From the NCBI GenBank assembly GCA_947503765.1, contig CANNFA010000004.1, positions 186,001 through 250,000 on the forward strand: a stretch of 64,000 bases of DNA. Direction: 5' to 3'. Below are positions 8,921-16,414 of the stretch, piece by piece. The translations under genes and the position numbers were made by a program. Under the pieces are notes generated by a model that did not search any database, was not told the origin of the DNA, and worked only from the letters and a program-made list of their open reading frames with translations. How positions within the stretch are numbered: the stretch's first letter is position 1; each line of letters starts with the position of its first letter. The DNA comes from an uncultured Paracoccaceae bacterium. GTDB taxonomy: Bacteria > Pseudomonadota > Alphaproteobacteria > Rhodobacterales > Rhodobacteraceae.

Positions 8921-9753
8921 CCCAAAACGGCGGCGCGCAGGTCGTCATCCACCTCGGGGCGGACGCCGAAGAACCGCTCGAAGGCCGGGGCGGCCTGATG
9001 CAGCAACATCCCCAGCCCGTCCACCGTTGCACAGCCTAGCTGCGCCGCGCGTTCCAGAAAGGTTGTCTGGAGCGGATTGTAGACCAGGTCATTGACCACC
9101 GCGTTCGACGACAGCGCGTCCAGCGGGACACGAAATTCCGGCTTACCCACCATGCCCAGCGATGTCGTGTTCACCACGGTTGCCGCGTCTTCCAGAATAT
9201 TGCCGGCCTGAACCCATTCATAGACGGTCACCTTGTTGCCAAAATCGCTGCGCATCGCGTCGGCACGGGTGCGGGTACGGTTGGCGATGCGGATCTCGGG
9301 TGCCCCAGCCTCGATCAGCGAGGCGACCACGGCACGCGCCGCGCCGCCCGCACCGATCACGGCGGCGGGGCCGGAGGTCGGTCGCCAATGCGGCGCGTAC
9401 TGGCGCAGGTTCTCCATGAAGCCGAAGCCGTCCGTGTTGTCGGCGTGTATCTTGCCGTCCTGCCGGAAGATCAGCGTATTCGCCGCCCCGATCAGCGCGG
9501 CGCGGTCGGTTACCAGATCGGCAACCGACAGCATCAGCTCCTTGTGGGGGATAGTGACATTGACCCCGACGAAGCCAAGACGCGGCAGCAGTCGCACCGC
9601 GTCAGCCAGGTCGGCATGGGCGATGTCCATCGGAATGTAATGCCCCGGCAGGCCGTAACGGCGCAGCCAGTGTTCATGCAGGATCGGCGACTTGCTGTGC
9701 GCGACGGGCGAGCCGATAACGCCGGCCAGCGGTATGCGAGACAATTGTGTCAT
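8917..9753 (-). CDS. aroE: shikimate dehydrogenase (NADP+)
   Basis: AroE reduces 3-dehydroshikimate to shikimate in aromatic amino acid synthesis. The 278-residue protein shows the shikimate-binding [16 protein letters not shown], the catalytic lysine in [15 protein letters not shown], and the nucleotide-binding GAGGAARAV loop. NADP preference is suggested by NRTRTRA after the second strand. The C-terminal [19 protein letters not shown] is characteristic. It overlaps maf upstream and coaE downstream by four bases each. Confidence 0.96.
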
Positions 9754-10349
9754 CCCGAAAGAACCTCCGTTTCGCTCAGATAGCCCAGGATCTCGAGCAG
9801 GGGCAGCCCCAGGACGGTGAAATAATCGCCATCGATGCGCCGGAACAGCCGCGCGCCCTCTTCTTCAAGCTTATATCCGCCGACGGAGTGGCGAATGCTG
9901 TGCCAGTTGCGCATCACATAATCATCTAGCCAGGCATCGCTGGCCTTGCGCATCTGCAACGTCACGCTGCCGACATGACGCCATCGGGGCGAGCCGCCGG
10001 AATAGATCACGGCGGCGGAAATCAGGCGATGCTCGCGGCCGTTCAGCAAGGCAAGCTGCGCGCGTGCCTCTTCCGCGTCTGTCGGTTTGCCAAGGATCGT
10101 ACCGGCCGCATCAAGAACCTGATCGCAACCAAGCACGAGCGCGTCCGGATACCGCGAAGAACCGCGCCTTGCCTTGGCATCCGCCAGCGCATCGGCAATA
10201 TCGCGGGGCGCGGCATTGTCGGCCAGCATGGCGGCGCGGATCGATTGTTCGTCGACGCGGACGGGATCGACGCGGATCGGAACACCCACGTTTTCCAGCA
10301 GGCGGCGCCGAATTTCCGACCCGGAGGCCAGGATGATCGGAGAGGACAT
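9750..10349 (-). CDS. maf: Maf-family nucleoside triphosphate pyrophosphatase
   Basis: Maf proteins hydrolyse non-canonical or modified nucleoside triphosphates to monophosphates. The 199-residue protein opens PIILASGSEIRRRLLENVGV, the conserved substrate loop, and contains LGCDQVLD and GKPTDAEEARAQLALLNGREH. It is the first gene of the minus-strand operon and directly borders the predicted replication origin. In other alphaproteobacteria the ori-proximal gene on this side is often a DUF299 kinase/pyrophosphorylase gene followed by maf; that gene is absent here. Confidence 0.93.
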   Translation of the reverse strand: MSSPIILASGSEIRRRLLENVGVPIRVDPVRVDEQSIRAAMLADNAAPRDIADALADAKARRGSSRYPDALVLGCDQVLDAAGTILGKPTDAEEARAQLALLNGREHRLISAAVIYSGGSPRWRHVGSVTLQMRKASDAWLDDYVMRNWHSIRHSVGGYKLEEEGARLFRRIDGDYFTVLGLPLLEILGYLSETEVLSG

Positions 10350-10411
10350 GAGGACAACCCTATGGACAAGTCATGTGTGATCCGGGGGATGCGATCCGGG
10401 TAACAGGCCAT

Positions 10412-10424
10412 TGACAGACTGTCA
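10412..10424. repeat. perfect 6-1-6 dyad in the origin region
   Basis: TGACAGACTGTCA is a perfect inverted repeat with six-base arms and one central base. It lies 63 bp upstream of maf and 39 bp left of the first DnaA-like box. It could be an operator for maf or a protein site within the origin; nothing else identifies it. Confidence 0.4.
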
Positions 10425-10462
10425 CGCGAAACGCCCCGATTCCCCCATAGGGCATCCGGGTA

Positions 10463-10479
10463 TTATCCAGAGTGGATAA
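10463..10479. promoter_or_regulatory. paired DnaA-box-like sites (inverted)
   Basis: TTATCCA at 10463-10469 and TGGATAA at 10473-10479 form a perfect inverted repeat with a GAG spacer. Read as nine-base boxes, TTATCCAGA on the plus strand and TTATCCACT on the minus strand each differ from TTATCCACA by one base. Confidence 0.6.
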
Positions 10480-10494
10480 CAAAAACGGGAGGGA

Positions 10495-10503
10495 TGTGGA
10501 TAT
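10495..10503 (-). promoter_or_regulatory. DnaA-box-like site
   Basis: TGTGGATAT, read on the minus strand as ATATCCACA, differs from the consensus TTATCCACA only at the first base. Confidence 0.55.
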
Positions 10504-10530
10504 TGCGCCGGGAAGGATTTGATACAGATT

Positions 10531-10539
10531 TCATCCACA
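10531..10539 (+). promoter_or_regulatory. DnaA-box-like site
   Basis: TCATCCACA differs from TTATCCACA only at the second base. It lies about 30 bases before the AT-rich tract that begins near 10566. Confidence 0.55.
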
Positions 10540-10604
10540 GATTGTCGTTGCGTCAATGTATGGGTAAGTATTTGATTTTAAAATATATCTTCGTGGTATC
10601 CCGA

Positions 10605-10624
10605 ATATCTAGAATACCAGATAT
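10605..10624. repeat. inverted repeat in the AT-rich part of the origin
   Basis: ATATCT at 10605-10610 and AGATAT at 10619-10624 are perfect six-base arms around an 8-base spacer. They sit at the right end of the AT-rich tract, where helix unwinding would be easiest. Confidence 0.4.
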
Positions 10625-10765
10625 GCGAATTGTCCAATCGGGATAATCCGGTGCATGACCAACTTATCCGAGTTGTCCCCATGCCCTACAAACACCAACA
10701 ACTTTTCTTTTATCTCTTTTTATATAAGGGGGACCGGTGAACGATTTCCTAACCGGAGCGGTGCC

Positions 10766-11221
10766 ATGATCGCGGATGTGCTGATCGCGATGTATCCCTG
10801 GACGAAAAGCCTGCATGTGATCTCTGTCATCGCGTGGATGGCGGGGCTGTTCTATCTGCCGAGGCTTTTCGTCTATCACATCGAACAGGTGGCAACCGGG
10901 TCGCAGACCGATACGATGTTCCAGGTCATGGAGCGCCGCTTGTTGAAGGCGATCATGAACCCGTCGCTGGTGGCGACCTGGCTGTTCGGATTGATGCTGG
11001 TCTTCACGCCCGGCATCATCGACTGGCGCGAGGTCTGGCCCTGGACGAAGGCGCTGTCGGTCATTGCCATGACCTGGTTTCACATGTGGCTGGGATCGCG
11101 GCGCAAGGATTTCCTGGCGGGTGCCAACACCCGGACCGGCCGGACGTACCGGATGATGAACGAGGTGCCGACGCTGCTGTTGATCGTCATCGTCGTGTCG
11201 GTCATCGCGCGCCCGTTCTGA
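10766..11221 (+). CDS. hemJ: protoporphyrinogen IX oxidase HemJ
   Basis: HemJ oxidises protoporphyrinogen IX to protoporphyrin IX in haem synthesis, at the inner membrane. The 151-residue protein has four hydrophobic segments. It carries the family signatures KSLHVISVIAWMAGLFYLPRLFVYH, which includes the conserved histidine of the first helix, and TKALSVIAMTWFHMWLG with the later histidine. The ATG at 10766 has GGAG eight bases upstream; the longer in-frame reading adds an unconserved leader from the origin region. It is the first gene on the right side of the predicted oriC and lies before rho. Confidence 0.93.
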   Translation: MIADVLIAMYPWTKSLHVISVIAWMAGLFYLPRLFVYHIEQVATGSQTDTMFQVMERRLLKAIMNPSLVATWLFGLMLVFTPGIIDWREVWPWTKALSVIAMTWFHMWLGSRRKDFLAGANTRTGRTYRMMNEVPTLLLIVIVVSVIARPF

Positions 11222-13922: not shown

Positions 13923-13938
13923 TGTTTCACGTGAAACA
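13923..13938. promoter_or_regulatory. parS: parS centromere site 1
   Basis: TGTTTCACGTGAAACA is a perfect 16-bp palindrome identical to the consensus parS bound by chromosomal ParB. It lies 3.2 kb from the predicted oriC, and parA and parB are 2.5 and 3.3 kb downstream. The mnmG start codon (GTG at 13931) lies inside it and the AAGGAG ribosome-binding site (13917-13922) directly abuts its left end. Confidence 0.93.
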
Positions 13939-15799: not shown

Positions 15800-16414
15800 C
15801 GAATGGGCGCGAAGAGTTCGCGGCGTACACGAATGTTTCACGTGAAACATTGCAGCGTTTTGATCTGTACGCCGACCTGATCAAAAAATGGAATCGCGTG
15901 ATCAACCTCGTGGCGCCGTCCACGCTCGATGATCTCTGGACGCGTCATTTCCTCGATTCCGCTGCGTTGTTCAAGACGGTCGACGTGCCAGACGGAAAAT
16001 GGGTCGACCTGGGATCAGGCGGCGGGTTTCCCGGCGCGGTCGTGGCGATCCTCGCATCGGAAAAGTCGACCTCTCTGGCCGTGACGTGCATTGAATCCGA
16101 CGTTCGAAAAGCCGCATTCCTCCGGACGCTGTCCATAGAAACCGGTGTGAGCTTCAATGTCCTGTCGCGCCGCGTAGAGGACACGCCGGCACAGAACGTC
16201 GACATCGTGTCCGCCAGGGCACTTGCACCGCTGCCCAAGCTTCTGGACTATGCGATCCCTCACCTCAAGCCCGGCGGGAAAGCGGTTTTCCTGAAAGGCG
16301 AGCATTGGCAGGCCGAAGTCGAAGAAGCACTTGCAAGCCACCGGTTCTCGGTCAAGAACATACCAAGCCCAACCAACCCGAAATCCGCGATTCTTGTCCT
16401 CGGAGATATCTCGC

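Follow-up and report, generated by a model that had tools for sequence, protein, structure and literature searches.

We predict with high confidence that the 416 bp separating maf from hemJ (10350–10765) are the replication origin (oriC) of the main chromosome. The call is based on comparison and composition, and on these grounds the site is very probably oriC. DnaA boxes, an IHF-type site, a conserved element, the GC-skew minima of relatives and nearby parS sites support this reading, which was also that of the preliminary description. All coordinates refer to the window, i.e., the whole 64-kb stretch of DNA that was analysed.

The genes on both sides of the gap are directed outward from it. 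The maf gene (9750–10349, minus strand; Pfam Maf) starts at 10349, and hemJ (UPF0093 in Pfam; 10766–11221, plus strand) starts with the ATG at 10766. A longer in-frame ORF of hemJ from 10655 exists, but it would cross the conserved non-coding element described below. All the named genes to the left lie on the minus strand and all those to the right on the plus strand. The Pfam scan placed 10 of 10 flanking proteins in the expected families, comprising an exonuclease (dnaQ-like), CoaE, the AroE N-domain, Maf and UPF0093 (HemJ), followed by Rho, MnmE, GidB/RsmG, ParA and ParB (mnmG was outside the scan). Strands and families thus bear out the diverging gene blocks and the gene order that had been named from the sequence. 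The named relatives closest in HemJ (79% identity) belong to the Rhodobacteraceae, e.g., Psychromarinibacter and Maritimibacter.

Four DnaA boxes with one mismatch each lie inside 77 bp of the gap: TTATCCAGA at 10463–10471 (+), TTATCCACT at 10471–10479 (−), inverted relative to the first, ATATCCACA at 10495–10503 (−) and TCATCCACA at 10531–10539 (+). These are the four near-consensus sites of the preliminary description, and its statement that the gap has no perfect box is also true. Additionally, the gap contains a weak box with two mismatches (TTGTCCATA, 10361–10369, −) and a single GANTC (CcrM-type) site (10438–10442). The position of the weak box matches that of a box ~10–30 bp upstream of maf in several relatives, and several relatives have a box at a distance from maf (~190 bp) like that of box 10531. 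That the boxes in this copy are weak suggests a reliance on cooperative binding.

The own genome (3.98 Mb) has eight perfect DnaA boxes and 174 with at most one mismatch. Near-consensus boxes look depleted genome-wide, as the reversed control word has 320 matches. With 174 near boxes in the genome, fewer than the control, four in 416 bp are far from chance; by hand arithmetic, ~0.02 boxes with at most one mismatch are expected per 416 bp at the genome rate. The 64-kb window holds 11 one-mismatch boxes compared to 4.28 in shuffles (shuffle maximum 9), and among the own-genome matches listed (to C4:170 kb), inspection by eye found no three sites within 500 bp. We further sampled the 450 bp upstream of maf in the best 30 of the 58 genomes with a Maf match, among 61 genomes searched (own included in both). 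These 30 regions contain 71 near boxes, whereas a composition-matched Markov control gave a mean of 3.1 (200 runs, largest count 10 over the 30 regions). A hemJ match lies within the locus in 25 of the 30 and is adjacent in 23. In three loci (L043, L049 and L051), boxes lie ~0.86–1.2 kb from maf, and L043 has an additional one at 0.4 kb; the start of hemJ is at most ~0.4 kb from the distant boxes in L043 and L049. The four central boxes were rejected as the whole story, since their positions vary among relatives and the element at the hemJ end varies less.

Cumulative GC skew was followed in local 400-kb stretches of each genome, and GC skew was sampled in 20 stretches of each relative. The minimum of the single-contig relative G007 (3,475,000) is ~3 kb off the site, which lies just before 3,477,847, and that of the single-contig relative G004 is 18 kb off (1,775,000 vs 1,793,138). 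The own contig is the weakest case of the three, with a broad minimum (~125–160 kb) whose lowest bin (155 kb) is 41 kb to the left of the site at 196.35 kb. The sampled stretches were mostly concordant, with some exceptions: in G007, three right-arm stretches (0, 180 and 360 kb) have slightly negative values instead of the expected positive ones, and in G004 the 240-kb stretch is slightly positive and the sign is already positive by 1.68 Mb. A skew minimum far from the gap had been named beforehand as evidence against an origin here; the local 400-kb skews do not refute oriC. KOPS-like GGGNAGGG words change strand close to the site in G004, being mostly on the minus strand up to 1.774 Mb and mostly on the plus strand from 1.785 Mb. 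The switch is weak in the own contig (left, 24 minus and 10 plus; right, 8 minus and 13 plus), and G007 has no KOPS-like strand switch at the site, as plus words prevail from 3.36 Mb, already to its left. The lack of a switch in G007 and the skew offsets of 18 and 41 kb speak against an origin here.

The window also carries two perfect parS sites (TGTTTCACGTGAAACA) at 13923–13938 and 15834–15849, the second inside rsmG, where it is read as NVSRET. They are the sole perfect ones in the genome and lie 3.2 and 5.1 kb from the gap. Together with the ParA and ParB genes identified by Pfam, they are located near the gap as in an alphaproteobacterial origin region. The features listed in the preliminary description are all present, and its inventory was incomplete in that it omitted these two parS sites and the element at 10664–10728.

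A conserved element at the hemJ end of the gap

In an alignment of 23 gaps, conservation is strongest beside hemJ and weaker at the four central boxes. The earlier suggestion that part of the origin signal lies elsewhere is therefore right in a sense, with the best conserved element sitting at the hemJ end. In the window, this element opens with a BUS-like pair of DnaA boxes on the plus strand, the first degenerate (TTATCCGAG, 10664–10672, three mismatches) and the second directly abutting it (TTGTCCCCA, 10673–10681, two mismatches). A TGCC spacer (10682–10685, +), often GGCC in relatives, leads into a triplet array (CTACAAACACCAACAA, 10686–10701, +), which is followed by a T-rich and then AT-rich tract (10702–10728, +). 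The array begins with CTA at 10686–10688, and five consecutive NAN triplets (TAC AAA CAC CAA CAA) can be read on the box strand after the second box, although their register differs by one base from the one seen in most relatives. Given this shift and the three and two mismatches in the pair, the unwinding element is weak in the window.

The same organization recurs across the family. A scan based on HemJ alignment took the best 80 of at least 555 relatives, giving 81 loci with the window. Most of them have a box with a second one abutting it, followed by about four bases, chiefly G or C, in many cases CTA, and then CAW triplets, CTT and T-rich/AT-rich DNA. The majority bases after the box pair are GGCC-CTA-CAW-CAW-CAT-CAT-CTT, followed by T-rich DNA, and C/TTA followed by a CAW-type triplet occurs in 39 of the 81 loci. 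Over a searched span of 125 bp, runs of at least two CAW triplets are present in 71/81 loci compared to 399/1620 shuffles (25%), and runs of at least three in 38/81 compared to 29/1620 (1.8%), counts that include some runs in or before the box pair (e.g., L103, L128 and L163). L097, L098, L104, L170 (Nioella) and L172 represent a natural variant of the array, with a shortened or absent GC spacer and frequent CAA repeats.

Seven maf loci lack an adjacent hemJ; the element is present in two of them (L036 and L043) and, by the rule used, was not found in the other five. In L036, a rho-like ORF (by eye) comes next instead of hemJ. The element as a mere hemJ leader was rejected, since L036 keeps it without hemJ.

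Register and centre base of the triplets

The BUS of B. subtilis is described as tandem boxes, a GC spacer, a trio array and T/AT-rich DNA (PMC8287927, PMC10721633, PMC6669920). Neighbouring DnaA protomers are reported to capture two bases of every 3'-GAT-5' trio between them, and Asn187 holds the central A, where a T lowers activity (PMC10721633). The hemJ-side element has the same order of parts. Tandem boxes, a GC spacer and a first trio of 3'-GAT-5', i.e., CTA on the box strand, are the family majority, and the window has the CTA as well. In contrast to B. subtilis, the later triplets are CAW, and Asn187 of DnaA is replaced by Tyr. In the B. subtilis register, the trio strand of these triplets reads 3'-GTW-5', in which the third base, the one that is not captured, is free to vary.

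Of the 63 loci that have a run, 46 keep it in phase with the box pair, and the remaining 18 of the 81 loci have none there; the corresponding p of 1.4e-10 assumes independent loci, which these are not. With one locus per cluster, 15 of 23 runs are in register (p 0.0017; 36 clusters, 23 with a run). Among 18 further loci, which are 23 minus five that repeat genomes of the window or of the other set, 12 have a run, and in 9 of these it is in register. The run triplets (n = 175) consist of 119 CAT and 56 CAA, and 33 of the 63 loci have at least one CAA. Anchoring misplaces some loci (e.g., L116, L124, L134, L137, L149, L154 and L156), which were kept in the counts.

The hemJ-side element may be an ordinary canonical BUS with 3'-NAN-5' trios in another frame, e.g., 3'-TAG-5' from the CAT repeats, with the T-rich tract supplying the A-centred trios that follow, a serious possibility that stops short of being probable. 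The published rule defines a BUS as a box with at most two mismatches within 16 bp of at least three 3'-NAN-5' trios. It is passed somewhere in the 450 bp by 70/81 loci compared to 21/81 shuffled ones, with 33 best matches falling at the same site within a single 25-bp bin, and 42 of the 81 loci pass at the anchored pair itself. A general preference of DnaA proteins for TAG has also been reported. The CAA triplets, about a third of those in the runs, argue against canonical trios, as the trio strand opposite them lacks an A, and so does the register with the box pair, which survives clustering. The window's conserved pair fails the published rule; elsewhere in the gap, the rule is passed by box 10495 (−) with four trios and by boxes 10531 (+) and 10361 (−) with three each.

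Alternatively, the trios may be T-centred, with DnaA capturing 3'-GT-5' instead of 3'-GA-5' per protomer and Tyr standing in for Asn187; we consider this possible and somewhat doubtful. The register of the runs and the freedom of the third base are in its favour, and a T-centred version of the rule is passed by 72/81 loci compared to 20/81 shuffled ones, with 42 best matches in one bin. However, the canonical rule is passed about equally often, and when each cluster is represented by a single locus, only 44% of 144 triplets have A as their centre on the box strand, misanchored loci included. The lower activity reported for a T centre in B. subtilis also speaks against it.

In the DnaA of the window's genome (G000:C10:81093-82427), Tyr188 aligns with Asn187 of the DnaA in PDB 8btg, which, from its numbering, we take to be the B. 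subtilis protein. At the same alignment position, two chains that we assume from their PDB entry codes to be of T. maritima and A. aeolicus have Asn and Gln, respectively. Our sample of alphaproteobacterial DnaA comprised 31 loci (own plus 30 from the 75 matching genomes), and the 30 that were parsed have Tyr in 28 cases and Phe in two, which is consistent with T-centred trios. Yet the arrays of other orders, located upstream of the PPSR gene, look mixed, with A at the centre in 46% in the best frame (15 hand-picked of 30 loci, L179 being misplaced), and some of them can be read by eye as CTA trios. Because Tyr/Phe is class-wide while these arrays look mixed, a clean switch of code should be considered hypothetical, and the equation of Tyr187 with T-centred trios was not accepted as proven. 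We propose only tentatively that Rhodobacteraceae, perhaps all Alphaproteobacteria, may read a changed single-strand origin code of T-centred trios with an aromatic residue for Asn187. If true, T-centred trios would be the 'deviant DnaA-trio' without a middle adenine suspected by Pelliciari et al. 2021.

A putative order of events at the origin

Easily melted DNA adjoins the boxes in a stability scan of the 64-kb window, whose two least stable 36-mers start at 10555 and 10693, both in the gap. The least stable one lies in the AT-rich tract at 10555–10620, a feature correctly recognized from the sequence at the outset. Within this tract, AATCAAATACTTA at 10565–10577 (−) fits without a mismatch the IHF consensus WATCAANNNNTTR. 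The IHF site noted earlier is thus present, and the qualifier 'near' should be dropped, as the match to the consensus is exact. IHF-like sites with at most one mismatch occur in 51/81 loci compared to 77/243 shuffles, and 41 of the 51 cluster 190–230 bp upstream of hemJ in the relatives.

In the mechanism that we favour, DnaA would bind the central boxes (10463–10539), and IHF would bend the AT-rich middle at 10565–10577, bringing the central DnaA closer to the hemJ-side box pair (10664–10681). This pair would load a DnaA filament onto one strand of the adjacent triplet array. The filament would then open the T/AT-rich tract (10702–10728), where the helicase would be loaded, and ParAB would move the copies via the two parS sites 3–5 kb rightward. 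The hypothetical step is the reading of the array, whose triplets in Rhodobacteraceae look like a T-centred DnaA-trio (3'-GTW-5' for 3'-GAT-5').

It is unlikely that melting takes place mainly in the tract at 10555–10620, next to box 10531, with the hemJ-side element as an accessory, as the IHF-type site sits inside that tract and alignment conservation is higher at the hemJ end. Central melting would account for the position of the window's least stable 36-mer and for the three canonical trios after box 10531, and family-wide, the mean AT content has peaks at both −200 (0.70) and −60 (0.75). It is very improbable that the gap is only a DnaA-regulated divergent promoter/leader of maf and hemJ-rho with the origin elsewhere nearby: two divergent gene blocks do start in the gap and the skew minimum of the own contig lies well to the left, but the box excess in 30 regions, the conserved element in 81 loci and its retention in L036 without hemJ, the skew minimum of G007 beside the site and the adjoining parS sites all argue against it.

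Relation to known origins

The origin itself is ordinary for Rhodobacteraceae, and the trio variant is a testable lead. Kopejtka et al. 2019 (PMC6699656) predicted oriC in 101 strains of Rhodobacteraceae, with eight unresolved, using Ori-Finder and the proximity of parAB and of the GC disparity minimum. Those origins belong to the same family as the window, and their inner anatomy is absent from the consulted part of that account. The oriC of E. coli is described with IHF and with TTGT/TTATT ssDUE motifs (PMC10316083). The gap resembles it in having an IHF-type site between the boxes and the hemJ-side element and a T-rich bound strand, on which the CAA repeats of the window's family give TTGTTG. 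It differs from the E. coli origin, as far as that is described in the consulted text, in that the array here lies directly beside the box pair and has a three-base repeat.

In 15% of origins, no trio is reported to have been found, and deviant trios are suspected (PMC8287927). The variant array deserves a test because of this suspicion in print, and it could be such a 'deviant DnaA-trio'. The same source, in its consulted part, leaves open the range of the DnaA-trio code and the DnaA residues that read trios. Our search found no literature on DnaA-trios in Rhodobacterales, and the supplementary tables of PMC8287927 may hold Rhodobacteraceae entries; a search combining DnaA-trio with alphaproteobacterial oriC gave a single match, on epsilonproteobacterial origins. 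A family-wide array with an altered centre, alongside a class-wide residue change, provides concrete sequences and proteins for in vitro work.

The Caulobacter type of alphaproteobacterial oriC lies between hemE and the RP001/PPSR gene. The window resembles it in that the origin is on the same side of the maf-aroE block and has boxes in the gap, and it differs in having hemJ instead of hemE. It differs, too, in regulatory sites: the CtrA motif TTAA-N7-TTAA is absent from the window's 450 bp and present in 6/81 loci, and control of the gap by CtrA was rejected, as the gap has no site. PPSR (PF03618) was matched in 50/76 genomes, with no match in the own genome (G000) or in G061 of the same family. 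In other alphaproteobacterial genomes, the PPSR gene flanks the gap, and L178 has a hemE-like ORF, a gap and PPSR, i.e., the Caulobacter-type layout.
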